A model generated the notes under the pieces. The model was given only the letters and a program-made list of their open reading frames with translations. It was not told the origin of the DNA and searched no databases. The position numbers were made by a program, and so were the translations under genes. A stretch of DNA of 64,000 bases from Methanoculleus sp. (GTDB lineage: Archaea; Halobacteriota; Methanomicrobia; Methanomicrobiales; Methanoculleaceae). The number at the start of each line of letters is the position of its first letter. Positions within the stretch are counted from its first letter, which is position 1. Where the stretch lies: the NCBI RefSeq assembly GCF_020696975.1, contig NZ_JAJGBK010000020.1:62001-126000 (forward strand), written 5' to 3'. This document shows positions 43,480 through 60,401 of the stretch, piece by piece.

Positions 43480-43859
43480 CTGAAGAGCGCTTTCAGCCTT
43501 TAGCAGGATATTCTCGCCCATAACCCCTTTAGGCTCTTTGTTTGCGGCGAGCGGCGATCAACGCCGGTATCTCTTCTGAGGTAATTTAAATAGTTGTTGT
43601 ATCTAGCACTGTGAATAAAATTCGAGAAAGGTTCGTCGACGTCAGCGGCCGCGGCAGGCGCCCCGGTCTGGATGACGTTCTCTTGTAAGCGCCGAAAGAG
43701 TAAATAACGCACATGGGCAGTACCGATACGATCAGGAAGACCGGAGCCACCAGGAAGGGGGCACGGTTCGAGATCCGGGTGCCGAATGGGAGGTATCGGT
43801 TCGGGAACTGTTGATGGTGCCGGCCAACATATATATAATATGAATTGCACGCTTGCACT
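43480..43859. other. Boundary region between core genome and A+T-richer island
   Basis: The 380 bp hold no long gene. A TATA-like TAATTTAAATAG at 43582-43593 precedes a GTG at 43611 that starts a 25-codon frame (43611-43688, MNKIRERFVDVSGRGRR...) about 26 nt downstream, as in leaderless archaeal genes. Two in-frame TAA codons later the same frame resumes at an ATG (43713) for 33 residues ending at 43814. It could be a broken small gene or two tiny ORFs. The LicD promoter occupies the end. Confidence 0.35.
43829..43840 (+). promoter_or_regulatory. TATA box giving a leaderless LicD transcript
   Basis: ATATATATAATA is centred about 26 nt upstream of the ATG at 43860, the spacing expected if transcription starts on the A of the start codon. 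No ribosome-binding site is visible. Confidence 0.6.
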
Positions 43860-44699
43860 ATGGTTAGCGAGGGTGCAACTCTTCGTAAATTACAGATTCT
43901 CGAATTGAAGATATTACTGGAGTTTAAGCGTATTTGTGAAAGACACAATCTCCAATACTTCTTGATCGGGGGTACACTTCTTGGCGCTGTTCGCCACCGG
44001 GGATTTGTTCCTTGGGACGATGATATTGATGTCGGGATGATGAGATCCGAGTATATCAAGTTCCTTAACGTCTGCAAAGACGAGTTGTCGCAGGAATATA
44101 CCCTTCAAACATTCGAGACTGACAGGACATATGCTCACCCCTTTGCTAAAATTCGCCTGGTTGGTACCGAGTATCCTGAACCGAAGTACAAGGCCGTATC
44201 TGATCAGAGAGGCATCTGGATGGATATATTTCCATTTGATTCCACTCCAAGCAACCGTCTTCTAAGAGATATTCACCGGTTCAGGCTTATGACAATCATT
44301 CATATGTGCGAGATTAAGTACAATTATACGGTAGAACCTTCTACGCTGCTAAGAAGAGTGCTCTATTTGGGTTTGCGATGGTTTTCAAGACCATTCAGCA
44401 GAACCTGGCTTGAGAATCGAAGAGAGTACCTGTTTCAGAAGTACAACAGAGAAAATCCGGGCTCGTATATCTACAGTACGCTCTGTTGTTTCCCATCGGA
44501 AGCATTCGAACAATTTGTGGAGCTAGAGTTTGAGGGTATCAAATTTCCAGTCCCGGCAGGCTACACTGACTGTCTTACGTGCGCCTTTGGGGACTATATG
44601 AGTATACCTCCCAAAAACAAACGTATCAGACACACGCCGCATGCGCCGAATTTTGGAAAATATGCTGACATCTGTTCTGTTGACGAGATACGGGACTAA
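43860..44699 (+). CDS. licD: LicD-family nucleotidyltransferase-like protein
   Basis: The 279-residue protein has the LicD signature: LGAVRHRGFVPWDDDIDVGM near 45-65 with the metal-binding DDD/DID and the FLIGGTLLG strand. In known bacterial systems LicD family proteins transfer phosphocholine or similar phosphoryl groups onto glycans or teichoic acids. The archaeal role is likely decoration of a surface polysaccharide, inferred from the glycosylation context. First gene of the island; the A+T-rich codon use differs from the flanking core genes. Leaderless start supported by the TATA box. Confidence 0.85.
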   Translation: MVSEGATLRKLQILELKILLEFKRICERHNLQYFLIGGTLLGAVRHRGFVPWDDDIDVGMMRSEYIKFLNVCKDELSQEYTLQTFETDRTYAHPFAKIRLVGTEYPEPKYKAVSDQRGIWMDIFPFDSTPSNRLLRDIHRFRLMTIIHMCEIKYNYTVEPSTLLRRVLYLGLRWFSRPFSRTWLENRREYLFQKYNRENPGSYIYSTLCCFPSEAFEQFVELEFEGIKFPVPAGYTDCLTCAFGDYMSIPPKNKRIRHTPHAPNFGKYADICSVDEIRD

Positions 44700-45826: not shown

Positions 45827-47644
45827 ATGGTCGGGATAAATGCTCTCATCTCCTCTGGAATGTCAGATCACCGCATAAAATTTTCTGATATTCAAAATAC
45901 GATGTTGCATTACCCTAAATACCAGGCAAATACGCTGTTCGAAGATGACTGCCTTCTTATTGGGTCGACAGCATACGATCAGTATCCCATAACCTGTTTT
46001 GAAAGCCCCGGATCTTTCATTCTCCTTGAAGGTATAATATACAACATCGATGATGCGACAATTAAAAACAATCTTTTTGCCATCGCAGATCTTGTTCCGG
46101 AAAGAGCAACGGTTTCAGAGACGATAGCCAGATTTTTAACTCATGCCGATGGCGAGTTCATTGTCCTGATCTACGACAAACCGACAAAGCTTCTTTGTGT
46201 CTTCAATGATGCGCTGGGAAGGTTGCCGTTCTTCTGGTACAGGGATGATGCGGTTCTGGTATTCTCTCGCGAGATGAAATTTATGTACCCCTTTGTGAGA
46301 CCAATAGCATTCAACAGGCTGGCGCTCATGGAGTATCTTCTTTATGAATTCCCCCTCGGTGAGAGGACACTTATTGAGGGCGTTGAAAGGCTGCTGCCGG
46401 CTACCGTAATGATGTATAGCGGATTGAGTCAGACTCTCTTAAAGGAACAGGTTCTACCTCTCACGTTTGAATTTGAGAAAGAAGACCGGAAGATATCCAA
46501 GGAAAATATCAAAGACCTCAAGCGATCTTTTCTCGCGGGTCTCCGGAGCAGGGTCTCAAAACTGGGTCCCAGAAGGTCCCTTATCTCGCTGAGCGGGGGC
46601 CTGGACTCGAGGGCGACGCTGGCAGGATTGATTGCGCAGGGAGTTAAACCCCGGGGGATAACCTATGATACGGCCCCGGAGGATGCCGGGGAACTGGGAT
46701 ACACTCAAAAAATTGCAGAAACCTTCGGTGTTTCGCTCACTCATTTCGCTCCCTCAAAGGATATGGATTATGAGGAGTATCTCCGTTATGTCGCACTGGT
46801 CGATGCAGGCCAATCTATAAACCTGGCAAACGTCGTGAACATCGAAGAACAGATCATGCTTCACGAGGGAAGCGATATTGTTCATTACACCGGACTGTAT
46901 GGTGGGGAGTTATGCAGATATCTGAATGTGACGTCCGGCTTTGGCTCAGACGATGATCTGGCACAATTTCTCCTCACCACCCCGGATCAGTATGGGTATG
47001 CTCACCAAAAAGTCTGCGCGATGCTGCAGGCTTCAAAAGATGAGATCCAGGAACATATCCGGGAGCATATCGCTGCTTACCCGGAGAAGGATCTCTATGC
47101 CAAGTATCTCCATTTCAAGTTTGAGAAAGACTATAAGTGGGCTGGTCTGGGTGAGGATAGAAACCGATTTTTCTTCTGGACAGTTACACCGTTTTACTCC
47201 AGAGACTTTTTCTGGACAGCGTATACGATAGATGAGCGTAAAAAGGACACTCTCTTCTTCAGAGACTTTCTTTACTCGCTTGACCCCAGAACCTGCGCTG
47301 TGGGCTACTACAATACCGGAATGAGTCTTAAGAACCCTCTAACATTGTATATCTACAGGTTTGCAGAGAAGGGAGTGCGGACCCCATGGATAAGACAACT
47401 TGGATGGCAGGCATTGCATTTTAAAGAAAAATTCGGCGTTTCAAAGAGATTCAACCCGAAAAAGGAGGAAATTCGAGCCTTTGCGTTGAACCTGCTTGAG
47501 AGATCGAGCCTGATCCAGAGATACTTCTCTCTTGCCGCAACCCGGAATGTGATTCGTACCGAGGAGGAACTGGACAAACTGGAGAGAATACTGACCCTCT
47601 TTATATATATGGATATGATCGATCGCGGCAAGCCGGATTTCTAA
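45827..47644 (+). CDS. Asparagine-synthetase-like amidotransferase lacking the glutaminase cysteine
   Basis: The 605-residue protein has a glutamine-amidotransferase-like N-terminal part (1-200, GSFILLEGIIYNI, NDALGRLPFFWYRD) and a synthetase PP-loop LISLSGGLDSRATLAG near 250 with the family fold to about 480. In asparagine synthetases Cys2 is exposed as the glutaminase nucleophile; here the start reads MVGINAL, with Val in that position, so glutamine hydrolysis is unlikely and free ammonia may be used. Related proteins amidate cofactors, peptides or sugars. It is probably part of the surface-glycan island, though a distinct role is possible. Confidence 0.75.
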   Translation: MVGINALISSGMSDHRIKFSDIQNTMLHYPKYQANTLFEDDCLLIGSTAYDQYPITCFESPGSFILLEGIIYNIDDATIKNNLFAIADLVPERATVSETIARFLTHADGEFIVLIYDKPTKLLCVFNDALGRLPFFWYRDDAVLVFSREMKFMYPFVRPIAFNRLALMEYLLYEFPLGERTLIEGVERLLPATVMMYSGLSQTLLKEQVLPLTFEFEKEDRKISKENIKDLKRSFLAGLRSRVSKLGPRRSLISLSGGLDSRATLAGLIAQGVKPRGITYDTAPEDAGELGYTQKIAETFGVSLTHFAPSKDMDYEEYLRYVALVDAGQSINLANVVNIEEQIMLHEGSDIVHYTGLYGGELCRYLNVTSGFGSDDDLAQFLLTTPDQYGYAHQKVCAMLQASKDEIQEHIREHIAAYPEKDLYAKYLHFKFEKDYKWAGLGEDRNRFFFWTVTPFYSRDFFWTAYTIDERKKDTLFFRDFLYSLDPRTCAVGYYNTGMSLKNPLTLYIYRFAEKGVRTPWIRQLGWQALHFKEKFGVSKRFNPKKEEIRAFALNLLERSSLIQRYFSLAATRNVIRTEEELDKLERILTLFIYMDMIDRGKPDF

Positions 47645-48423: not shown

Positions 48424-49737
48424 TTGAAGATCCCGGTGAGCAAGGCAATAATAGATGTACAATGGGCATTCATCAGTATTGCCACGGCATCACTGGCTCA
48501 CTTCATCCTCAGGATCGTCCTCGGCAGGGAACTCGGGCCAGAAGGGCTTGGGGTGTACACCCTTGCCTTCACTATCTATCTCTTTGGGATGCAGTTTGCC
48601 GCGTTCGGGATTGGAACTGCGTTGACAAAATACGTTGCGGAGTTCCTCGATAATCACGTCGCTATAAGAAATTACGTTTCTTCAGGGATGGTTAGTTCGA
48701 TCATTGTAGGCGCCCTGATGGGAGTTGCACTCTACTTTCTGGCTCCCTCTATTGCAGTATCTTTTTTCCGGATCCCTGAACTGGAGCCGTTGATCCAGCT
48801 GACCGCCCTCTGCTACCCCTTCATCGCCATCCAGAAGGCAGTGCTTGGGACACTGAATGGGTTCCGTAAAATGCATCTTTATGCGTTTCTGAACATCATT
48901 CAGAATGTCACCGTTGTCGTAGCATCTATTACTCTGGTGCTACTGGCAGGGATGGGTGTGATGGGGGCGGTGATCGGGTTTGTTGGCCCGACCATACTCA
49001 TCGGCAGCGTATGTCCTGTTCTGATCCGTGACTGGATCCAGCTCGATGTATCTTTGAGCAATATCGCCGCCCTTCGTGCAACGACAGTTTTTGGGTTTTA
49101 TGTCATGCTCGGAGATTCGATATCGTTTCTTAGCGGTCAGATTGACAGCATCATGATCGGGTACTATCTCAACCCGACTGAGGTAGGGATCTATGCTGTC
49201 GCTTTCCTCTTCACACAGATACTCACGCTCATACCTACGGCTGTTCAGGGAGTGACAGCACCGGTGACGGCGACGCTGTATGGGAAAAGGGATATCGAAG
49301 GTATAAGAAGGCTCTTTTACTCAACATTGAAGAAGAGTCTTCTCATTTCAGCAGGAATTGCAACGCTCATTGCTGTTTTTGGTCAATATGTCATTGTTCT
49401 TCTCTTTACCGAAGAGTATCTTATGTCGTATACCCCGCTGCTGATATTGCTGCCGGGGTATGCCGTCAATGCGTCTTTTGGTGCGGTTGGTGCCACACTG
49501 GCAAACATCGGAAAGGTGCATATTCCCTTCCGGATCAGCGCAGTCTCCGGGGCATTGAAGATCGTCCTGAACATCCTGCTCATCCCTCATCTCGGGATAA
49601 ACGGAGCTGCTCTGACAACAGGGGTAGCCGCGGTAATAAGTTTCGGGATAAAGGTAGCAGTCGTTCACCACTATATCGGGGGTCATTGCAGTGGTTTAGA
49701 TCAACGAGAACACGCATCCGATGAGTTAACTCCTTAA
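48424..49737 (+). CDS. Oligosaccharide flippase (Wzx/MATE-like)
   Basis: The 437-residue membrane protein has about 14 helices and begins with the typical Wzx-like segment (AHFILRIVLGRELGPEGLGVYTLAFTIY). Such proteins move lipid-linked glycans across the membrane. The start is TTG at 48424, preceded by GAGGT (7 nt spacer); no in-frame ATG exists at the N-terminus. A hairpin terminator follows (49796-49823). The context of glycosyltransferases and sugar-modifying genes supports the role. Confidence 0.88.
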   Translation: MKIPVSKAIIDVQWAFISIATASLAHFILRIVLGRELGPEGLGVYTLAFTIYLFGMQFAAFGIGTALTKYVAEFLDNHVAIRNYVSSGMVSSIIVGALMGVALYFLAPSIAVSFFRIPELEPLIQLTALCYPFIAIQKAVLGTLNGFRKMHLYAFLNIIQNVTVVVASITLVLLAGMGVMGAVIGFVGPTILIGSVCPVLIRDWIQLDVSLSNIAALRATTVFGFYVMLGDSISFLSGQIDSIMIGYYLNPTEVGIYAVAFLFTQILTLIPTAVQGVTAPVTATLYGKRDIEGIRRLFYSTLKKSLLISAGIATLIAVFGQYVIVLLFTEEYLMSYTPLLILLPGYAVNASFGAVGATLANIGKVHIPFRISAVSGALKIVLNILLIPHLGINGAALTTGVAAVISFGIKVAVVHHYIGGHCSGLDQREHASDELTP

Positions 49738-50063: not shown

Positions 50064-51824
50064 TCACGTCGAATAAATCTCAATATCGCGATTGTCATAG
50101 ACTTTTGTACGAATTGACCGGTCGCTTCTGAACCAGGCATAATCTCCTGCAGTATACCGGCCGACTTCCCTGTATCCGGGAACTTCCTGGTACAAAAGTT
50201 CATCGAGATTCAGCAGAATGACATAACCCTGCTGATCAGGCTCTAGATTTATATCGGCAAATGTTCTATGAGAGGAGTTGTAACCGAAGTGATCGGGTAT
50301 CTGGATCTCATTGTCGATTCCCCCATCATCAAATAGATCGTGGAACCTCTGGATCTGACTCACCGGGACAATCGTATTCTCACCAGTCCTTGCTTCATAA
50401 TACCACTCAATTCCTTCAACTTCGTTATGCGTCAGAGCGGCATTTGTCACGAAGATATTTGGTGAATCAAACGTCCCGAAAAGACCAAGGCTCCACATAC
50501 CTGTCAAAATGATGAGTACAAGTGCGGTTTGCCGGTTGAAAAACTTCGGCGCTGCAAATACTACAGAGAGGGAGAGCACAAACAACGGTACCTGGGCATA
50601 AAGCATGAAGTTTAAATTGGTCAGGCGGTCGGGTTGATGGGAAAACATAGGGTTCAGGAAGATGATTGCCTCAATGATCAGGAGTGCGATATAGAAGGCT
50701 GAAAAGAAGTACATGCGGTTCTTTACTGCTTGAGTGATCTTATCCTGCTTAAGGCGGATCAGAATTAGCGCGATGCCAATGATGATGAAGGGGATTAGAT
50801 ATCGGCCGTAATAGACGAATAGCAATTTCATCATGCTGGGAAGATCAATATTGATACGTGCTATCTTCTCTGTCGTCATAAGAAGGCTGGGTTCGGTTAT
50901 CTTCAGAAGATAACTCTGAAAGTTTATCCTGAGACTGCCCATGAGGGCGTCACAGTAGACAAACCATGCAAGAAACCCCATGATGGAGATTGTGAGAGGA
51001 TGTGCGGCACGCCAATAACGTTCGTGAATAAACCGGTTCAGTAGCCCTCCGGACAGTATTAAGGAGAGAAGGAGGGCAAACACGAAGAGAACGATGAACG
51101 GATGCATGAAAGGGACAAGAATTGTCGGGAGAATAAGCAGAATGGCATTCGAGAAACCGGCTTTATTGATGTAACGACTCAGAATGAAGATATATAGGGG
51201 CATATACGCGAAAAACAGGGCATGAGGGACGTTGAGAAAGTTGTAGGGGCCCAGGTAAAGAATGAATGAGGAGAGGATAGCGATATTCATCAAGTTCTTT
51301 CCCTTCAAGAAGAAACGGCAACAGAGATACAGTCCACCGACGAGGATGAATGAAAAGATAACCGGCATCACGAAGGCTGCACCGCTCACCGGGAGCCCCG
51401 ACATCATTGAGAGAGCAGCACCAAGGATGAGGCTTCCCGGGTAGATGTTCCACTCATCATTGGTGAAACCTGTCTTGCTGATGTGGAGATACTCACCAAT
51501 ATACGACATGTCGTCTGCCCTGCCCATGGAGTAGTAGCCGAGCATGTAGGGAATCAGCAGGATGACTGCATGATTGAGAATAAGTAACAGAACTCCGAGT
51601 TTTTTCGCACGTTCCCGTCCCGAAAGGAGAGCGATAGAACTGATAAGGTAGCAGAGTATTGCGGCACTGTAAAATGATAGTGGGAGAACCGAGTAGATGT
51701 CCACAGCATAGCCTTGAGGCTGATGCGAGTACAGAATAAGGAGGTTATAGAGTATGAGGATGAACCCGAGAGTCAGGAGAAACTTTGGACATTTTCCATT
51801 TAAGAAAGGGTCTGATATCTTCAT
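50064..51824 (-). CDS. Large polytopic membrane protein, probable polysaccharide-locus protein
   Basis: The 586-residue protein has about 12-13 hydrophobic helices over residues 15-450, then a soluble C-terminal domain (about 455-586) outside the membrane. Motifs such as MGRADDMSYIGEY in the first large loop (acidic, near residue 103) resemble GT-C-type glycosyltransferases or polymerases, but I cannot assign a family. It lies last in the minus-strand run, 165 nt after the GT4 gene stop, so it is likely part of the same locus. Role inferred from context only. Confidence 0.55.
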   Translation of the reverse strand: MKISDPFLNGKCPKFLLTLGFILILYNLLILYSHQPQGYAVDIYSVLPLSFYSAAILCYLISSIALLSGRERAKKLGVLLLILNHAVILLIPYMLGYYSMGRADDMSYIGEYLHISKTGFTNDEWNIYPGSLILGAALSMMSGLPVSGAAFVMPVIFSFILVGGLYLCCRFFLKGKNLMNIAILSSFILYLGPYNFLNVPHALFFAYMPLYIFILSRYINKAGFSNAILLILPTILVPFMHPFIVLFVFALLLSLILSGGLLNRFIHERYWRAAHPLTISIMGFLAWFVYCDALMGSLRINFQSYLLKITEPSLLMTTEKIARINIDLPSMMKLLFVYYGRYLIPFIIIGIALILIRLKQDKITQAVKNRMYFFSAFYIALLIIEAIIFLNPMFSHQPDRLTNLNFMLYAQVPLFVLSLSVVFAAPKFFNRQTALVLIILTGMWSLGLFGTFDSPNIFVTNAALTHNEVEGIEWYYEARTGENTIVPVSQIQRFHDLFDDGGIDNEIQIPDHFGYNSSHRTFADINLEPDQQGYVILLNLDELLYQEVPGYREVGRYTAGDYAWFRSDRSIRTKVYDNRDIEIYST

Positions 51825-51989: not shown

Positions 51990-53174
51990 TCATCCTAAAA
52001 ACCGGGCATAGACGCCCATCGTCTCCTTTGCAATATTTGCCCATGTATACCGCTCCGCATACGCGAGGATTGCCTCCCGATCCCACTCCCGGTCCAGCGC
52101 GGTGAGGATCTTCTCTGCCAGATCATCAGGGTCGGCGGGCTCGACCAGCAGACCGTACTCGCCAGAGGTGATCACCTCCGGCACTCCGCCGACCCTGGTC
52201 CCCACAAAAGGCTTTCCGCATCCAAGGGCCTCGAACATGACCGTCGGGTTGCCTTCGTTGAGGCTCGGCAGGACAAAGAAGTCGCTGGCGTTCATCCAGA
52301 GGGTCAACTGATCCCCGGGGACAGACCCTAGCAGTTGCACATTCTCCTCCAGATGCGATCGGATGATCTGCTTTTGCAGACCTCTCCACTCCGGACCTGC
52401 CCCACCGATATAACAGAATGCATCATCCCGTTGGCTGCAGACCTGTTCCATCGCGTTGATTAAGTAATTGAAGCCCTTTCGCTTGATCAACCCTCCCAGT
52501 GTGAAGATGATCTTTCTCTCCTCCGGGAGGTTGAGCCGTTCCCGTGCGATGGCTGTCTCGATAGGATGGAAGGCTGGAGAGAATCCGTTGGGAATCGCAC
52601 GGACACATCTGTTGTAACGTTGTAGCACTGGGACGTCCTTCTTGTTCACCCTGATGAGGGCATCGGCACCAGACCAGGCCGTATTGATAAGAGGGTGATC
52701 CATGGTGACCTCCTGTTCAAACCAATCACCATTCTCGTGAATGGTGGTGACTACCGGCTTCCCGTATTTCTCCTTCAGTCTAACCCCTATATAGCCGGAT
52801 GGCCAGGTGAAATGAGCATGAATAAGATCAAAGTGGAGACGGTGTTCCTTGATGGTTTGTTCCACCACCTGTAACCGGTTGTCGATCAGGATCTTACTCA
52901 GCCAGACGATTGGGATATAGATGCTTCGGGGATAATAGACTTCTACGTTGTCGTAAGAGTAGTCTTTACAGATCTTATCTTTCCCAAAACGACCATAGGA
53001 TTGAAAGATTGGAGAAATGATCACGACCTTCTTGAAATAGTGACGCAACTCGGCAACAGGGTTTTTTACAAACGTATCCCCGGCAAATGAATCATCCTGA
53101 TCTGGATAGGACGAAGTGAGAAGCAGGAGAGATTTATCCTTTAGAACCTCCAGCCGATCCGGTTTTGCGTACAT
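51990..53174 (-). CDS. Glycosyltransferase family 4 protein
   Basis: The 394-residue GT-B enzyme has the GT4 donor-binding region TLGGLIKRKGFNYLINAM, LWMNASDFFVLPSLNEGNPTV with the E-x7-E motif (EGNPTVMFE) and TRVGGVPEVI. It transfers a sugar from a nucleotide donor to a lipid-linked or growing glycan on the cytosolic side. The gene is 110 nt after the stop of the amidotransferase paralogue 1 and precedes the large membrane protein. No signal peptide. Confidence 0.93.
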   Translation of the reverse strand: MYAKPDRLEVLKDKSLLLLTSSYPDQDDSFAGDTFVKNPVAELRHYFKKVVIISPIFQSYGRFGKDKICKDYSYDNVEVYYPRSIYIPIVWLSKILIDNRLQVVEQTIKEHRLHFDLIHAHFTWPSGYIGVRLKEKYGKPVVTTIHENGDWFEQEVTMDHPLINTAWSGADALIRVNKKDVPVLQRYNRCVRAIPNGFSPAFHPIETAIARERLNLPEERKIIFTLGGLIKRKGFNYLINAMEQVCSQRDDAFCYIGGAGPEWRGLQKQIIRSHLEENVQLLGSVPGDQLTLWMNASDFFVLPSLNEGNPTVMFEALGCGKPFVGTRVGGVPEVITSGEYGLLVEPADPDDLAEKILTALDREWDREAILAYAERYTWANIAKETMGVYARFLG

Positions 53175-53284: not shown

Positions 53285-54427
53285 TTATTCCCTGTTATAA
53301 CTCCCGTAGATCTTAGTGGGAAACAGATGCAGTCTGTATGCGATGGTTATCAGATGCTGTAGTCTACGGACGAGAGGATAATACGAATCGAATTCGGACT
53401 GTGCTCTCGGCTTAGAATTGATAATATTCTCGAATTCTTCAAGGCTGATGCCGAACCTGTTGCGGAGATACAGCATATCTGCCCTAACTGTATCATCATT
53501 GCATGCCGGCAGTTCAAGTTTCGCCAGAGCTTCGTCCCGGGTCATCTGGTTGGATCGAACGAACGCCGAATAATGAATTTTCCTTTTATCTATGCCAAAC
53601 TTCTTCGGCAGCAAATATCCCTGAACAAACCGGGTATATATGGACTCATGGTGACCTGTACCGTAATCGATCCATCCCAGTTCTTTTTCGAGAAGTCTCT
53701 TTACATCCTCCTTAACATACGGCAGATAATACAAAGGCTTAATCTCTCGTATCCCCTTAAAAGCGAAGTAATACAGATAATCTTTAAGCAGCACATTCGG
53801 GAACGTCTCAAGAGTTACGTGGCCAAATCTATCATGAACGGATTTTAAGTATTTTCCATCGCCATAACTCCATCCCGGAGGCATTTTTCCTTCGGTTCTA
53901 AACGAACTGCCGACGAGAATGTACTTTATCCCGAACTGCGCAGCGCATTTATACAGCGATGCCGTTATGGCCAGATCTGGAGGCACTTCCAGATCCGGAA
54001 CAGATGCTTTAAAGAAAGCTAATTCTAAATCAACGATCTCTTTCTCATCTAATTTTACAGTATACAGATCAACATTCAACCTGTTTACCGCATTTTGAAT
54101 ATTTTGGATGGATATCTCCGTGTCGCATCCATCATCTACATGCAGCACCAGCGGGTTAAGTCCGTATTTACATGCAATGTATAGAGTATAGATGCTATCT
54201 GTTCCTCCGCTAACCCCTATAAGGCAGTCATATTTTGCGGTTCTTTGACTCCGTTTTATACTGTCAACAATCTGCTGGAATCTCTGCTGTGTAGCCTCAC
54301 TTAAGGGGAACTCCTGTTCGATGAGATCGTAGTTCTTGCACAGATTACATACTCCATCCGTATCGAAAGATATTCCCGGGATACTGTCGTCACAGACGCA
54401 TCTTGTACAAACTCGTAGTTCGGTCAT
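53285..54427 (-). CDS. N-acetyl-sugar amidotransferase, paralogue 1 (WbpG/PseA-like)
   Basis: The 380-residue protein has an N-terminal Cys cluster (CTRCVCDD, CNLCKNYD), PP-loop GVSGGTDSIYTLY near 70, and the family signature KKFGIDKRKIHYSAFVRS near 275. WbpG/PseA-type enzymes convert an acetamido group of a nucleotide sugar to acetamidino, using ammonia supplied by a HisH-like partner in Pseudomonas. No HisH or HisF homologue is near. It is paralogous to the gene at 58109. The start ATG (54427) overlaps the stop of the 106-residue ORF by 4 nt (ATGA). Part of a seven-gene overlapping operon. Confidence 0.87.
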   Translation of the reverse strand: MTELRVCTRCVCDDSIPGISFDTDGVCNLCKNYDLIEQEFPLSEATQQRFQQIVDSIKRSQRTAKYDCLIGVSGGTDSIYTLYIACKYGLNPLVLHVDDGCDTEISIQNIQNAVNRLNVDLYTVKLDEKEIVDLELAFFKASVPDLEVPPDLAITASLYKCAAQFGIKYILVGSSFRTEGKMPPGWSYGDGKYLKSVHDRFGHVTLETFPNVLLKDYLYYFAFKGIREIKPLYYLPYVKEDVKRLLEKELGWIDYGTGHHESIYTRFVQGYLLPKKFGIDKRKIHYSAFVRSNQMTRDEALAKLELPACNDDTVRADMLYLRNRFGISLEEFENIINSKPRAQSEFDSYYPLVRRLQHLITIAYRLHLFPTKIYGSYNRE

Positions 54428-54744
54428 AATAACCCCCAATGCATATCAGTGTCGGAAGACCTCGCTTTCACTCCAACCCATGCGGGTCCTGGCAGTTTTA
54501 GCATCAAGAACCTTACAAAGGCCGTCAATGTTTTTTTGTGAGGAAGATCGATGATGGCATCCGTCACGGCGTAGAGATGCCTGCCCCCCCTCCGAAAACC
54601 ACCTCCGTCGAGATTGGCGGCTTGCACTTTCATAAATCCATTGATCTCCCCGGACGTATCAGCAGCGTCACAGATCGTAAAAACCAGACTACGTGAGTGT
54701 GTGGCGCCCGGACCGGGCATAGGGCCTGATTGAACCTCTATCAT
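54424..54744 (-). CDS. Unrecognised 106-residue protein coupled on both sides
   Basis: No family is recognised. The evidence for a gene is positional: its ATG (54744) overlaps the TGA of the PHP gene (ATGA at 54741-54744), and its TGA overlaps the ATG of the amidotransferase (54424-54427). Removing it would leave a 313-nt gap in an otherwise gap-free operon. The sequence has a Gly-rich central part (DGGGFRRGGRHLY) and no signal or membrane helix. The weak protein character leaves open a degraded or fast-evolving gene. Confidence 0.45.
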   Translation of the reverse strand: MIEVQSGPMPGPGATHSRSLVFTICDAADTSGEINGFMKVQAANLDGGGFRRGGRHLYAVTDAIIDLPHKKTLTAFVRFLMLKLPGPAWVGVKARSSDTDMHWGLL

Positions 54745-55352
54745 CCTAAATCCTCAACACAATGGCAGTCACTGCCCCTGACAAAGTTTACCTGCTGGCC
54801 TCTCGCCAGATCGATCCACGCATCCGGAGGTGCGTTGTACCTTTTATTTAGTTCGATCAGGACCTCGCTGTTGCTGAGCGCTTTAAATATCAGACATAAC
54901 TCTCCTTCCTGTAAATGTAACCCGGCTCGTTTCAGGAATATACCGGGATGCGCCCAGGTATTGATACGGGGGTTTTTCAGGACATGGTAGAATGCATCGA
55001 GATAGACATCTATATCCTGTGGAAATGAATGGAAAGCAAATATCGGGTAATCGACCTGTTCCAGGACATTATCTTCAACATCAAGAGTTCCGTCAGGGAG
55101 GACCTTCGCTTCGCACCCGGAAAGGATGAACAAATCGTACTGCTCTCGCGCTCTATCGATATCTTCCAGATAAGCCTGAAAATCATAACCCGGATTCCGG
55201 CGGATATGTTCAGTGAACGCAACCAGAGGAATGCCGAGTTCTGCCGCTCTTCTGCAGTAATCTGCGACTGAACCTTTACCATCGGTATAATCTGTATGAA
55301 TATGCCATTCGCCGGACAACAGATACTGTGAGTATTTCTGCCAGACTTTCAT
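54741..55352 (-). CDS. PHP-domain metal-dependent phosphoesterase-like protein
   Basis: The 203-residue protein has the PHP metal motifs GEWHIHTDYTDG (HxH), VAFTEHIRRN, SGCEAKVLPDG, FAFHSFP, WAHPG and GSDCHC. Histidinol-phosphatase-like PHP enzymes hydrolyse phosphate esters with metal ions. The start ATG at 55352 overlaps the stop of the ATP-grasp gene by 4 nt; the frame is open farther upstream but only as antisense/overlap. Within the operon it could remove a phosphate from a sugar intermediate; this is inference. Confidence 0.85.
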   Translation of the reverse strand: MKVWQKYSQYLLSGEWHIHTDYTDGKGSVADYCRRAAELGIPLVAFTEHIRRNPGYDFQAYLEDIDRAREQYDLFILSGCEAKVLPDGTLDVEDNVLEQVDYPIFAFHSFPQDIDVYLDAFYHVLKNPRINTWAHPGIFLKRAGLHLQEGELCLIFKALSNSEVLIELNKRYNAPPDAWIDLARGQQVNFVRGSDCHCVEDLG

Positions 55353-56407
55353 AAAAATCCCACAGCAGTATTGTTGTTCTCGAGTCCTATGCCCCCCCAA
55401 TAACGAAGGATCTTCGTCCCCCATTTAATCTGGAAACCAGGCACATCTTCGTTCAAAGCACGCTTAACAGCAGCATAAATGATATTGGCACCTGCAAACG
55501 TCGAAAGAACCATTGTGCCCTGAACTCTCGGGTTGGACTCCAACAATTTTGGGGTATTATGTTCGTCCATTTTGAACTGGAAACCGAACGCGTAGTTTAG
55601 TCCGGTTGCTTCACTAAGTTTTCGCGCATACGTGATGAGAGCCTCGTGATACTCGACCGTGCCGTGGAAGGTGATGCCTGATTGAATGAGGTCCCGCTTC
55701 CTTGGAACAATTGTATATTCCGGGGTTTTCAAGACATCGACAGTGTATTCTGCATTGGGGAGATACTCCATTACTATCAGAGGCGGAAAGTCGGATCCTA
55801 AAATCTCGTACAGACTCTTCATCTTCACGAACAACGACGTCGGTTTTTCCAAATAGAACATCTCTTTAAGATCACGGGATTCGTCGACTATACGTACGCC
55901 TCTCATCCCGTTGGAGAGCGGTGGTTTGACAACCACCGGTTTATCCGGCCATCCCAATTCCTTTGCAAAATCAGTCAGGGCCTCAAAATTGTTTACAAGA
56001 CCGTATTTCGGAGTAGGCACACCTATCTGTTCTGCCAGCCTCATCAGTCTGTATTTGTCATTTGCGACAGAGATTGCAGATGCATCGGAGACAGCAACAG
56101 ATGTTCCAATGTCGGAGAACGAAGATCTATTCTCTGCTAAAACGGGTAGTTCAAGGGTGTTTTGAGGGACTACGACGTCTACGCCCTCCTTTTGACAGAT
56201 TGAGAGGAGTAGGTCCAGATAACCCGTGTCAGTTGGTCTTGGAATGCGGTAAAAACTGTCGCATAGGTATTTTCCAACGACCTCTTGCTTTATGTCTGTT
56301 CCGATTACCCTTACGTCTCTATTCTCGAAGTTTCCTTTTAGGGAATAGAGTGTACCTTTTATGCCGGGAGCCCCTGCGCCAGTCACAAGAACAGTCAAAC
56401 CATCCAT
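55349..56407 (-). CDS. ATP-grasp ligase (CarB/PylC-like)
   Basis: The 352-residue protein has an N-terminal Rossmann-like preATP domain (VLVTGAGAPGIKGTLYSL), the ATP-grasp core with KPVVVKPPLSNGMRGVRIV near 170 and the Mg-binding LLESNPRVQGT near 295. ATP-grasp enzymes join a carboxylate to an amine or thiol using ATP. Next to a deacetylase and two amidotransferases, a job in acylating an amino sugar or amino-acid-sugar ligation is plausible. The start overlaps the PIG-L gene by 13 bp; its stop overlaps the PHP start by 4 nt. Confidence 0.87.
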   Translation of the reverse strand: MDGLTVLVTGAGAPGIKGTLYSLKGNFENRDVRVIGTDIKQEVVGKYLCDSFYRIPRPTDTGYLDLLLSICQKEGVDVVVPQNTLELPVLAENRSSFSDIGTSVAVSDASAISVANDKYRLMRLAEQIGVPTPKYGLVNNFEALTDFAKELGWPDKPVVVKPPLSNGMRGVRIVDESRDLKEMFYLEKPTSLFVKMKSLYEILGSDFPPLIVMEYLPNAEYTVDVLKTPEYTIVPRKRDLIQSGITFHGTVEYHEALITYARKLSEATGLNYAFGFQFKMDEHNTPKLLESNPRVQGTMVLSTFAGANIIYAAVKRALNEDVPGFQIKWGTKILRYWGGIGLENNNTAVGFL

Positions 56408-57024
56408 CGTACAACCTCAAAAGCCTCAGCGTATTCCGAACTACACTGGATTCCTCGAGTCTTCGCCAGGCCATAAATAAACTCTTTTGAAAAGTAGGGT
56501 TTACCCTTGATGAACTGGGATCGATAATTTGTCAGGATCTTACACTTCCTCTCGACCTGATGCTCATTGAGTTTGTTGAAACACTGTGTGTTAAATGTGA
56601 CATGGTTCCAGGGTAATTCATAGCAGATAACACTCGACGTAGTCTTGAAGGCTCTGACCATCTCGTGTGCTACGACCTGATGATCTTGATGAAGATCGTT
56701 GAGAGACGGCCCAATCACAATATCAGGGTTGTACTGATTCCTGGTTTTGATCAAGTCCTCCAATATATCCTGACGATATTGGTGGAGATTCCGTACCTTG
56801 AAATCAAACACTTTGCAGTTTTCCGTTCTAAGATCGAGATCACGGGTTACATTGAGAAATTCTACCTTTAAGGTATCTTTTGGGAGGCCTTCAGGTAAGG
56901 AATCTTCAGCTGTGGAGAATGTGACCCAGAAGATCTCATGCCCCTCTTCTAAGAGTTTAATGATTGTTCCACCACACCCCAGTTCAGCATCGTCTGTGTG
57001 AGGAGACAATACTAATACCTTCAT
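56395..57024 (-). CDS. PIG-L family N-acetyl-sugar deacetylase
   Basis: The 209-residue protein begins MKVLVLSPHTDDAELGCGG, the PIG-L/LmbE zinc motif (PHxDDxE), with a later His pair in NDLHQDHQVVAHEMVRAF that completes the site. Known relatives remove acetyl groups from N-acetylglucosaminyl compounds (phosphatidylinositol, mycothiol and bacillithiol paths). It is followed by the ATP-grasp gene (13-bp overlap) and preceded by DUF354 (9-nt gap). It would expose an amine for the ligase, by inference. Confidence 0.9.
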   Translation of the reverse strand: MKVLVLSPHTDDAELGCGGTIIKLLEEGHEIFWVTFSTAEDSLPEGLPKDTLKVEFLNVTRDLDLRTENCKVFDFKVRNLHQYRQDILEDLIKTRNQYNPDIVIGPSLNDLHQDHQVVAHEMVRAFKTTSSVICYELPWNHVTFNTQCFNKLNEHQVERKCKILTNYRSQFIKGKPYFSKEFIYGLAKTRGIQCSSEYAEAFEVVRWMV

Positions 57025-57033
57025 AACGACCTC

Positions 57034-58107
57034 CTAAATTGAAAAGTTATTCTGAAAATCGGGACGTTCTTTCATTATCCCTACGCTTCCGGGGAAATTC
57101 TCAACGAACCAGATCATGAAGGTCGTTATGTTCATCTTTTCGTGATTCAATCGATCCCGTTTATGTCGCCCTGCATTCCTGAGTTCTGGGTTCCGAAGCA
57201 ACTCGATTGCCTTTTTGAGGGTATCATCATCACTTTCAGACGTCCAGAGCAATTCATATTGGTTCAAGTCACGGAATATACCACAATGCTTTGCCGTAGT
57301 GGATACATGAATGGCATGCGTTCCCAGGCTTGCCGCCTCTGACGCTGTCGTCCCTCCCTCGCCCACGTACAGTGTTGCATAATACAACAGGTCATGCAAC
57401 TTCTCCGGGGAGATCCGGATCTGGTAGTGCTGCAACTCTGGTGGTACGGCCCCCTCTGAGGTGATCAGGACGCGCCCGTACCTTTCCAGCGCCTTCACGA
57501 GCCCGACCTTGTCGCGGACACCGCGCTGGCCGATGTCGTGGCTCGCCTGCCAGGCGACAAACCTGACGACAATAAACGTATCATTCTCGGTCAACCCTAC
57601 TTCCGACAACACTGAGGGATCGGGCGTGAAGCAGGCGGAATGCAGGGCAGCCAGCTCCATATAACTGTCGAACCGGACCTGTTTTTCCCCAAGATCCTTG
57701 CGGAAGCAACTCGGTGTCATGATCACAGTGGAGAAAGGAACGTACAGAAGGTGTTCCCACGCGGCATGCTCGGTGTCATCGAAGATAACAGCAGGCACAC
57801 CTAGAAACTTGGATGCATGCGCCGCCCTGATTGAGGAGAAGCCGAGAAGGATGTCGGGGCGGAAGTCCTTTACCGCCCGGTACATCTTTATGTCCATTAT
57901 TGGGATATTGATCAGTTTCTGAAAAGGTGAGATCCCATAACTCCCGAGGTCAACGTAATCCAACCCGTACAACTGGAGCAGCTGAGTTGCCACATCTTTA
58001 TGGCTTGCCGTAATTATGATCTCATGGCCTCTCTGTTTCATCTCCCGGATGAAATTCTTGAAGTAATGAACATGACCCGGATGGTTGATATCGACAACGA
58101 TCCGCAT
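57034..58107 (-). CDS. DUF354 protein (GT-B-like fold)
   Basis: The 357-residue protein starts MRIVVDINHPGHVHYFKNFI and keeps the DUF354 features: LGFSSIRAAHASKFLGVPAVIFDDTEHA near 100 and YVGEGGTTASEAASLGTHAI near 260, a nucleotide-sugar-binding region similar to UDP-GlcNAc 2-epimerases and MurG. Exact reaction unknown; it may be a glycosyltransferase or epimerase acting on the nucleotide sugar. The start ATG at 58107 is 1 nt after the stop of the second amidotransferase, so they are coupled. Confidence 0.85.
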   Translation of the reverse strand: MRIVVDINHPGHVHYFKNFIREMKQRGHEIIITASHKDVATQLLQLYGLDYVDLGSYGISPFQKLINIPIMDIKMYRAVKDFRPDILLGFSSIRAAHASKFLGVPAVIFDDTEHAAWEHLLYVPFSTVIMTPSCFRKDLGEKQVRFDSYMELAALHSACFTPDPSVLSEVGLTENDTFIVVRFVAWQASHDIGQRGVRDKVGLVKALERYGRVLITSEGAVPPELQHYQIRISPEKLHDLLYYATLYVGEGGTTASEAASLGTHAIHVSTTAKHCGIFRDLNQYELLWTSESDDDTLKKAIELLRNPELRNAGRHKRDRLNHEKMNITTFMIWFVENFPGSVGIMKERPDFQNNFSI

Positions 58108-58108
58108 A

Positions 58109-59257
58109 CTACGTCTGCGCCCCCAGGTACTTTTCATAAAAGATCTTCGGGATGACGTTCATGGAGCAGGCCAGTCTGATAGGCCATTTCAAAGCCTTGA
58201 TCAGTGGATAACTGGTAGGGTAGTCGAGGAAGGTCTTTGGAGGGAGAGAGAGAATTTCTCTGAACTCTTCTTCTGTAAATCCAATCTTCCCGAGAACGAT
58301 CTCTGTAACCTCTGCATCCCCGCCCGGAGGAGTCTTCAGGATCTCAAGTGCTGCATCCCGGGTTAACTTCTCTGAACGCACTTCGGCAGATAACTGAATC
58401 TTCCGCTTATCTATCCCGAATTTCTTCCAGAGGAGATCGGTGATCACGAAACGTGTGTAAAGAGACTCGAAATGGTGCCCTCCACAGTCACTCCAGTCTA
58501 CCTCGCGCCTGAGGATATCCTTCGTCTCCGCCTTACTATAGTTCATGTAGGCCAGGAGAGGGAGGGTCTTGATACCCTTAATGAGAGAAAAATCAACCAT
58601 ATTCCGGATTGTCAGGTTAGGGTAGGTTACAAGCGGAAGATGGCCATACCGCTCCTGTATGCTCCGGACATACCTCCCATCCATGTAACTCCACTTAAGA
58701 GGTTGTATGCCCTCAGTGCGGAAATTCATCCCATTAATGATCCATTTGACATTATTCTTTGCGGCCACGCGGTGGAGAACCGCATGGATGGCAAGATCTG
58801 TCGGGATCTCAACATCGGGAACTGATGCTTTCAGGAACGAGCGCTGGATATCGCTGAATTCTTTAAAGTCGACGGTAATCCACTCGAGATCAACCTCAAG
58901 TATTCTGATAGCGTTGTTGATATTGGCAATGGAGACTTCAGAATCCCACCCGTTGTCGAAGTGAACCGCAAGTGGACGCAATCCCAATCTCTTTGCCATG
59001 TACAGGCAGAAGGTGCTGTCCGTGCCTCCGCTGACACCTACTATGCAGTCATACTTCCGGAATTGACCATCTCTCTGTATCTTACCTACGATCTGGTCTA
59101 ACTTCTGTTTTCCTTTATCATTAAGGGGAAACTGCTCATTCAGGCTGTCATGAATACGACAAAAATTGCAGACACCCCTCTCATCAAATCTGATATCAGG
59201 TATGGTTGCATCTGAAATGCATCGGGAGCAGATCTGATGGTTATCGTTGGAACTCAT
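58109..59257 (-). CDS. N-acetyl-sugar amidotransferase, paralogue 2 (WbpG/PseA-like)
   Basis: The 382-residue protein matches paralogue 1 along its length: CSRCISDATIPDIRFDERG with a second CNFC pair, PP-loop GVSGGTDSTFCLYMA and KKFGIDKRKIQLSAEVRS. Like it, no glutaminase partner is encoded nearby. As first gene of the operon that ends in paralogue 1, it brackets DUF354, PIG-L, ATP-grasp and PHP genes. The two copies may act on different sugars or on two positions of the same sugar, or form a heterodimer; no evidence distinguishes these. Confidence 0.88.
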   Translation of the reverse strand: MSSNDNHQICSRCISDATIPDIRFDERGVCNFCRIHDSLNEQFPLNDKGKQKLDQIVGKIQRDGQFRKYDCIVGVSGGTDSTFCLYMAKRLGLRPLAVHFDNGWDSEVSIANINNAIRILEVDLEWITVDFKEFSDIQRSFLKASVPDVEIPTDLAIHAVLHRVAAKNNVKWIINGMNFRTEGIQPLKWSYMDGRYVRSIQERYGHLPLVTYPNLTIRNMVDFSLIKGIKTLPLLAYMNYSKAETKDILRREVDWSDCGGHHFESLYTRFVITDLLWKKFGIDKRKIQLSAEVRSEKLTRDAALEILKTPPGGDAEVTEIVLGKIGFTEEEFREILSLPPKTFLDYPTSYPLIKALKWPIRLACSMNVIPKIFYEKYLGAQT

Positions 59258-59339: not shown

Positions 59340-60401
59340 TCATTGGCCTCCACTTATTTGCAACTCAGCCTGCATGTCAAACAGCATTGCGAAGAACAAG
59401 AACTGCATCCCCATCATAAGCATCAGGAATGACAGTGTCCCGTGCACGAAGAGTACCGAGTACCCCAACACGAACTTCTCCCAGAGCGTGACGAGCCCCC
59501 CGATGATCCCGAGCGGCGTGAGCACCGCCCCGGCGAAGTAAAAGAACGCAAGGGGATGAAAACCCATCTGGATGTACTTCGTCTTCAAGCGGAAGAGGAA
59601 GTTCCCAAGAAGGAGCTTCGAGACCCGGGGGATATAGGTCGAGTAGCGGATCTTCGACTTCTCCCGGCCATACCGGGCCGGGATCGCGACATCCTGCACC
59701 TTCATCCCATAGATATTGAGCCAGACCAGAAGATGGTTACAATAACCGTAGCCCTGGTAGATGCTGTTGAGAGGGATCTCAGAGAGGGCCTTTTTCGAGA
59801 TTGCCGTGTAACCGTTCTGGGGGTCCATCATCTGCCAGTAACCCGAGGCGATCTTGGTGAGGAAGGTGAGGAGAGAGTTGCCGAGACTGCGCCACGCTGG
59901 CATCCCTATCCTGTAGGTCTCGTTGATAAGGCGGTTGCCCTTCGTGTAATCGGCTCGACCGTCGATGATTGGGTCAAGGAGGCCGGGCAGGTAAGCCGGA
60001 TCCATCTGGTTATCGCCGGCCATCACTGCGGCAACATCCATTCCATCCTCGATTGCCCTCCGGTAGCCGGAAGTGATTGCTCCCCCAACACCCAGGTTTG
60101 GGTTGTGATGGATGGGAACAATCCTCGGATCGTGTCGAGCGTAGGCATCGATGATTGCCCCGGTCCGATCGGACGAACCGTCGTCCACCGCATAGATCCT
60201 GGTAATGTAGTCGGGGATGCCGTCGAGCGTCTCACCGATCAGATCTTCTTCGTTGTATGCCGGGACAACCACGGCAACCCGCCTCCCGCGATAGCAGGGC
60301 TCCTCAATTACACCGCCGGCTACCGTGACCGATTCTTCAGCCACAAATGAATGCGACAGGACCGCGCTTTCCGCATGAATTCGTGTCAACCCGGATTGCA
60401 A
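59340..60401 (-). CDS. Glycosyltransferase family 2 (DPM1-like) with C-terminal membrane helices
   Basis: The 353-residue protein has GT2 motifs VAVVVPAYNEEDLIGETLD, YAVDDGSSDRT and VAAVMAGDNQMDP (D-x-D-like), QNGYTAIS, and two C-terminal helices (about 285-345) for membrane anchoring. It resembles dolichyl-phosphate sugar synthases, which make lipid-linked sugar donors. The frame starts at TTG 60401, with GGGTG 7 nt upstream; an in-frame GTG at 60344 is an alternative and no ATG exists in this part. It lies 82 nt upstream of the amidotransferase operon, same strand, and its codon use is closer to the core genome. Confidence 0.9.
   Translation of the reverse strand: MQSGLTRIHAESAVLSHSFVAEESVTVAGGVIEEPCYRGRRVAVVVPAYNEEDLIGETLDGIPDYITRIYAVDDGSSDRTGAIIDAYARHDPRIVPIHHNPNLGVGGAITSGYRRAIEDGMDVAAVMAGDNQMDPAYLPGLLDPIIDGRADYTKGNRLINETYRIGMPAWRSLGNSLLTFLTKIASGYWQMMDPQNGYTAISKKALSEIPLNSIYQGYGYCNHLLVWLNIYGMKVQDVAIPARYGREKSKIRYSTYIPRVSKLLLGNFLFRLKTKYIQMGFHPLAFFYFAGAVLTPLGIIGGLVTLWEKFVLGYSVLFVHGTLSFLMLMMGMQFLFFAMLFDMQAELQISGGQ

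Follow-up and report, generated by a model that had tools for sequence, protein, structure and literature searches.

A deacetylase, ATP-grasp ligase and phosphatase cassette as a candidate N-acyl-swap module in a mosaic surface-glycan locus of Methanoculleus

Porphyromonas gingivalis and Tannerella forsythia have a Wbp/Vim pathway in which VimE, a putative deacetylase assigned to carbohydrate esterase family 4 (CE4), uncovers the amine at C-2 of a diamino uronic acid. VimA, assigned to the N-acyltransferase/FemAB families, then attaches Ser or Gly to this amine, while amidation of the uronate falls to WbpS, an AsnB-type enzyme (PMC7468200). In the synthesis of bacillithiol and mycothiol (BshA/BshB/BshC and MshA/MshB/MshC), a glycosyltransferase and a deacetylase are followed by amino-acid ligation to the freed amine (PMC7278568). 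Acetamidino groups belong to the system formed by WbuX with HisH and HisF2 in a Sphingomonas exopolysaccharide cluster (PMC11340318) and to PseA/PtmG of nonulosonic acids (PMC13317340). Here we analyse 64,000 nucleotides of Methanoculleus sp. (contig NZ_JAJGBK010000020.1, positions 62,001 to 126,000; hereafter the window), in which genes for a PIG-L/LmbE-type deacetylase, an ATP-grasp ligase and a PHP-domain phosphoesterase, referred to below as the cassette, lie between two WbuX paralogues (53285-59257). This stretch is a patchwork surface-glycan locus of a methanogen. The reading we favour, with somewhat more confidence than doubt, is that it contains a three-gene N-acyl-swap module, beside which the WbuX enzymes would carry out amidination independently.

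The archaeal module would follow the known deacetylate-then-acylate logic with a different enzyme set. As in the Wbp/Vim pathway, deacetylation would precede aminoacylation, and related loci of archaea contain genes of the AsnB and FemAB types as well, but PIG-L, ATP-grasp and a phosphatase would take those roles here. The deacetylase belongs to PF02585 and is not of the CE4 type of VimE; no VimA homologue (a TIGR03019-like FemAB protein) was found among the genes of 53285-59257, whereas one is present in the related loci L059 and L063 (G, L and C numbers are our handles for genomes, loci and contigs). With bacillithiol and mycothiol the locus shares the predicted order of activities, from glycosyltransferase through deacetylase to amino-acid ligation, but the ligase is of another class, the locus context differs and the BshB model is not reached. 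Both WbuX paralogues of the window exceed the score threshold of the family and retain its PP-loop and Cys motifs, and WbuX stands with HisH, HisF and DUF354 in G118, G216, G218, G129 and a KSB1 bacterium, yet the window paralogues have no HisH/HisF neighbours and their genome has one HisH and one HisF. Among archaeal surface glycans, the N-glycan of Methanococcus maripaludis reportedly carries acetamidino and threonine decorations; we know of no PIG-L/ATP-grasp/PHP module for it.

The PIG-L, ATP-grasp and PHP genes occupy positions 56395-57024, 55349-56407 and 54741-55352 of the minus strand. PIG-L scores 63.1 bits against a cut-off of 28.2 for PF02585, and PHP 46.3 bits against 26.4 for PF02811; the ligase, which Pfam and NCBIfam describe as a PylC-like N domain followed by an ATPgrasp_Ter/CPSase-like part, reaches 124.9 bits against 29.1 for PF15632. 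Catalytic residues are invariant in all three alignments, namely the PIG-L metal motifs HTDD and HQDH (H9-T-D-D12 and H112-Q-D-H115; 11 homologues), the ATP/Mg residues K161, E214, E290, N292 and R294 of the ligase, and the PHP metal ligands H17, H19, D24, H49, E81, H108, H135, D195 and H197 (seven homologues).

Our searches covered 232 genomes of the order, followed by 393 of the phylum. Highly similar ATP-grasp proteins occur in 7 of the 232, and in all seven the PIG-L, ATP-grasp and PHP genes are adjacent, with DUF354 preceding them in five. Beyond the order the trio recurs in G253 (with DUF354), G451, G346 and on a Halobaculum plasmid, and a plasmid search (E<=1e-20) returned ATP-grasp matches restricted to haloarchaeal plasmids; in the more distant relatives G343 and G409, PIG-L occurs without PHP. 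An overlap of 13 nt between the PIG-L and ATP-grasp frames is shared by the window and all ten complete cassettes compared from related genomes, the annotated start in the Halobaculum record giving a 4-nt overlap. The three genes are a unit that travels together, the best-conserved part of the locus, usually behind DUF354. Of the families that a sequence-only reading of the window had placed in one pathway, DUF354, PIG-L, ATP-grasp and PHP are conserved as neighbours elsewhere in archaea, while WbuX and the cassette occur together no more often than by chance.

PIG-L enzymes de-N-acetylate amino-sugars, ATP-grasp enzymes couple a carboxylate to an amine, and PHP and HAD enzymes cleave phosphate esters. 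In the module that we propose, PIG-L would take the N-acetyl group off an amino-sugar intermediate, ATP-grasp would activate a carboxylic acid with ATP and couple it to the freed amine, and PHP would hydrolyse a phosphate ester on the product or on the acyl donor, DUF354 being the glycosyltransferase that handles the sugar. These steps, together with the sugar, the acid and the order of reactions, are predicted from sequence. PIG-L homologues elsewhere adjoin possible acylating or ligating enzymes, of the WbqC family (L074, L039), LpxD-like (an acyltransferase, L053) or AsnB (L136). Because of these neighbours and of the conserved PIG-L/ATP-grasp overlap we favour deacetylation followed by acylation, and re-acylation by ATP-grasp, as already suggested by the sequence-only reading, is still the best interpretation of the pair. 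PIG-L and DUF354 also belong to a recurrent set (L128, L129, L130, L134, L135, L139, L143) with a protein of about 520 aa, which has a WbqC-like HQPN motif in L128 and L134, and with more large proteins; those of L128, the one locus scanned, gave no Pfam match.

In four haloarchaeal genomes and in Haloarcula GH36, a HAD phosphatase directly follows ATP-grasp, without PIG-L, and a distant Omnitrophota homologue of the ligase (28%) has an adjoining HAD gene, with PIG-L two genes further on. Moreover, a second ATP-grasp type of these loci adjoins a PHP gene in three cases (L060, L074, L110). Two unrelated phosphatase families, PHP and HAD, occupy one slot behind the same ATP-grasp family. Since HAD replaces PHP there, the ligase seems to need a phosphatase partner and the phosphatase step seems to belong to its chemistry; since either family fills the slot, a real dephosphorylation is favoured. 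Tentatively, ATP-grasp might ligate a phosphorylated acid (e.g. phosphoserine or 3-phosphoglycerate) to the deacetylated amino-sugar, PHP or HAD then stripping the phosphate and leaving a seryl- or glyceroyl-type group. Such a ligation is possible, though we consider it doubtful, and would explain why a phosphatase of one or the other family comes after the ligase. The gene for glyceroyl-bearing sugars has been described as elusive in Tannerella (PMC6120980). As to gene surroundings, the haloarchaeal loci L078, L079, L080, L081 and L085 have a GT2 gene before ATP-grasp, HAD after it and DegT aminotransferase-like genes nearby. The Omnitrophota cluster (L154:3498-7050) is nonulosonic-acid-like, with DegT, the distant ATP-grasp, HAD, NeuC-like, PIG-L and HisF-HisH genes, and also holds a NeuB-like gene.

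DUF354 (PF04007; 57034-58107, minus strand) precedes the cassette. Its structure model (predicted local distance difference test 78, predicted template modelling score 0.75) has a GT-B fold, with LanGT2 and CapG as best matches and with MurG and UDP-GlcNAc 2-epimerases also among them; DUF354 is probably the glycosyltransferase of the locus. A separate wecB gene adjoins DUF354 in Haloarcula GH36. By pairwise comparison this gene of the window is itself a mosaic, in which the N-domain tracks WbuX and the C-end tracks the cassette. Residues 1-140 share 64-80% identity with three WbuX-neighbouring homologues and 37-42% with carriers of the cassette that lack WbuX, while for residues 263-357 identity is 60-65% to the four closest carriers of the cassette and does not exceed about 40% to the others. 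In shuffle tests on 59 proteins, which ignore relatedness, WbuX-neighbouring DUF354 proteins share N-domains (46% vs 39% in shuffles, p=0.003; C-end p=0.21), and those of cassette carriers share C-ends (55% vs 39%, p=0.0002; N-domain p=0.29). GT-B N-domains usually bind the acceptor and C-domains the donor, and a functional link between the DUF354 domains and their neighbours is only a suggestion.

The mosaic extends along the locus. Many methanogens have a frame in which GT2, a variable part, DUF354, another variable part, GT4 and a membrane protein follow each other, and the best relative changes along it: G062 for WbuX2 and the N-half of DUF354, G087 for PIG-L, ATP-grasp and PHP (87, 79 and 70%), G090 for WbuX1 and the membrane protein (81 and 70%) and G072 for GT4 (78%). 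The locus is an assembly, by recombination, of at least three modules, GT2-WbuX2-DUF354(N-half), DUF354(C-end)-PIG-L-ATP-grasp-PHP with a dehydrogenase that is now a scar, and WbuX1-GT4-membrane protein.

This scar is the open reading frame (ORF) of 106 aa behind the cassette (54424-54744, minus strand). It has no Pfam or NCBIfam match, and its residues 29-73 align at 40-44% with residues 292-337 of intact UDP-sugar dehydrogenases that relatives carry at this place in the locus. In G087 a 439-aa UDP-sugar dehydrogenase follows the cassette, and its residues 293-337 match window positions 54660-54526 in the frame of the ORF (40%, E 1.8e-5 over the whole window); by blastp, dehydrogenases of several genomes align at the same residues. 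We considered a small conserved protein and rejected it, the sole relatives being dehydrogenases. By these matches the ORF is a recombination scar, left from the C-terminal region of a UDP-sugar dehydrogenase, and not a functional gene. Dehydrogenases cut at about residue 284-292, of which only the C-terminal part is left, lie between DUF354 and GT4 in L111, L118, L119, L120 and L122, and slightly longer C-terminal pieces occur in L113, L117 and L132. Such pieces, mostly upstream of GT4, are either scars that recombination has left repeatedly or C-terminal domains that exist on their own; because they recur at the same site, the 3' end of the dehydrogenase seems to stay in place as flanking sequence during exchange of the central part of the locus.

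UDP-sugar dehydrogenases, intact or truncated, are frequent beside DUF354; G087 has one behind its cassette, and the window has a scar in that position. This brings up another substrate: ATP-grasp could act on a sugar carboxylate, activating a uronic acid and attaching an amine or amino acid to give a uronic-acid amide, with PIG-L and PHP at other steps. In G196 and G182 the cassette is followed by genes for AsnB-type enzymes; bacterial enzymes of this type produce uronamides (PMC7468200). On the other hand, PIG-L always immediately precedes and overlaps ATP-grasp in complete cassettes, which fits a freed amine as acceptor, and no dehydrogenase was seen in the retrieved neighbourhood of several cassettes (L060, L074); we judge the uronate substrate rather unlikely. 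Several further points weigh, as this one does, against the N-acyl-swap module as we propose it. Our search of the literature available to us found no demonstrated reaction for any enzyme of the locus or close homologue, and nothing relevant that treats PIG-L together with ATP-grasp and PHP, or DUF354 together with ATP-grasp. The closest solved relative of the ligase, 2pn1, was deposited as a carbamoylphosphate synthase large subunit and says little about the acid and the acceptor of ATP-grasp. FemAB, a possible alternative aminoacyl transferase, stands beside the cassette in L059 and L063, and ATP-grasp is therefore not simply its substitute. As for DUF354, its fold match is common to GT-B transferases and UDP-GlcNAc 2-epimerases, and the correlation between its domains and its neighbours needs no more than plain physical linkage plus recombination within the conserved middle part.

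The two FemAB genes near the cassette (L059:3661-4725 and L063:4917-5945) are close to TIGR03019, a PEP-CTERM/XrtA-associated, VimA-like family. We tested for a link to sortases, which has been speculated on for relatives of VimA, and found no support: no exosortase-family match was found in the genome of the window and in 5 of 9 others, and such matches are present in some, not all, genomes with these FemAB-bearing loci.

The activities of the locus also recall low-molecular-weight thiols, in which a GlcNAc glycoside would be made, deacetylated by PIG-L and given an amino acid by ATP-grasp, with PHP as the phosphatase that mycothiol synthesis is known to require. Transferase, phosphatase, deacetylase and amino-acid ligase are indeed the activity set of mycothiol and bacillithiol (PMC7278568), and BshB1 is the nearest equivalog of PIG-L. 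Yet the BshB1 score is 54.9 bits against a cut-off of 182.5, and the genes lie in a variable surface-glycan locus with a flippase and glycosyltransferases and occur in few members of a genus, unlike a cellular thiol pathway, which makes this reading very improbable.

The two WbuX genes, WbuX2 (58109-59257) and WbuX1 (53285-54427), both on the minus strand, flank this set. They score 256.1 and 247.1 bits against 203.2 for TIGR03573, are 44% identical to each other and are predicted N-acetyl sugar amidotransferases that would convert acetamido to acetamidino groups on sugars of their own modules. The PP-loop SGGxDS and paired Cys motifs are invariant in the WbuX alignment, and in WbuX2 the PP-loop (SGGTDS) and four conserved Cys are intact. 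The closest relative of WbuX2, in the Methanoculleus G062/L013 (78%), likewise adjoins GT2 and DUF354; that of WbuX1 is in G090 (81%). No HisH or HisF gene stands beside WbuX1 or WbuX2, and the assembly (95% complete) holds a single HisF (contig C31) and a single HisH (contig C6), both away from the contig of the window and only about 40% identical to the dedicated type. WbuX adjoins DUF354 without HisH/HisF in G062, L014, G090, G158 and G185 as well. Judging from the single HisH of this assembly and of G062, G090 and G185, and from a HisH-like remnant in G158, WbuX without dedicated HisH/HisF is common in this group, though most relatives carry the suppliers; ammonia would come from another source. 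The remnant (G158:C1:1355245-1355696, L098) lies on the opposite strand between tandem WbuX genes and has an internal stop.

The sequence-only reading had joined everything into one pathway, in which ATP-grasp re-acylates a deacetylated sugar and one WbuX enzyme, or each of the two, afterwards amidates that same sugar. Six intact genes run head to tail with short gaps and overlaps and may be co-transcribed, and G118 has WbuX-HisH-HisF directly upstream of DUF354-PIG-L-ATP-grasp-PHP. However, WbuX is found in 22 of the 232 genomes, the cassette in 7 and both in only 2, that of the window and G118, which is not above chance (hypergeometric P=0.13). The five other cassette genomes of the order have no WbuX, many WbuX genomes have no cassette, and ATP-grasp is absent from 11 of 11 further WbuX-bearing genomes. 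Moreover, the paralogues differ in module origin, WbuX2 coming from the GT2/DUF354 side and WbuX1 from the GT4/membrane-protein side, and one of the ORFs is a remnant. A single seven-gene pathway is therefore not upheld, and even an integrated route through the intact genes is unlikely. Double amidation of one sugar is possible; no result here points that way.

The dehydrogenase scar, the lack of dedicated HisH/HisF for either WbuX and the HisH remnant of G158 might instead suggest an assembly in decay, part of whose genes have ceased to work, with the scar and the second WbuX as marks of a recent, partly non-functional recombination product. Such decay is highly improbable: the six other frames are full length and free of internal stops, and every catalytic motif examined is retained.

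All coordinates of the sequence-only reading were reproduced. From WbuX2 to WbuX1 the junctions are a 1-nt gap (WbuX2/DUF354), a 9-nt gap (DUF354/PIG-L), the 13-nt overlap (PIG-L/ATP-grasp) and three 4-nt ATGA overlaps (ATP-grasp/PHP, PHP/106-aa ORF and 106-aa ORF/WbuX1). Its family calls also hold, both paralogues passing TIGR03573 and PIG-L, DUF354, PHP and ATP-grasp their Pfam cut-offs. Its seven-gene run stands as seven ORFs but amounts to six genes, the 106-aa ORF being a pseudogene remnant, and the boundaries 53285-59257 are too narrow. The guanine-plus-cytosine (GC) content of the 44-62 kb stretch is 42-54% against about 61%, a low-GC island containing the entire glycan locus. Members of this same locus are the GT2 glycosyltransferase at its 5' edge (59340-60401, minus strand; profile matches), the GT4 glycosyltransferase (51990-53174, minus strand; profile match and gene order of relatives) and the 586-aa multi-span membrane protein (50064-51824, minus strand) of its 3' frame, and a polysaccharide flippase (Polysacc_synt; 48424-49737, plus strand). 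The island also carries a distant AsnB-like gene (45827-47644; 50.7 bits against a cut-off of 267), and a LicD gene (43845-44699) lies at its border.

The surface glycans of archaea vary widely in chemistry, but only a small number of the enzymes that tailor them have been described. A deacetylase-ligase-phosphatase module that is compact and movable would provide a concrete enzyme set for such tailoring, with a second, apparently equivalent phosphatase family in haloarchaea. If a phosphorylated acid were indeed the substrate of the ligase, the module would represent an undescribed N-acyl-swap pathway, and its genes would be candidates for making glyceroyl-bearing sugars. Where WbuX enzymes that lack HisH/HisF obtain their ammonia is a question that this locus poses directly. 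Finally, the glycan clusters of methanogens are shuffled inside genes, as in DUF354 and at the dehydrogenase end, much like bacterial capsule loci.

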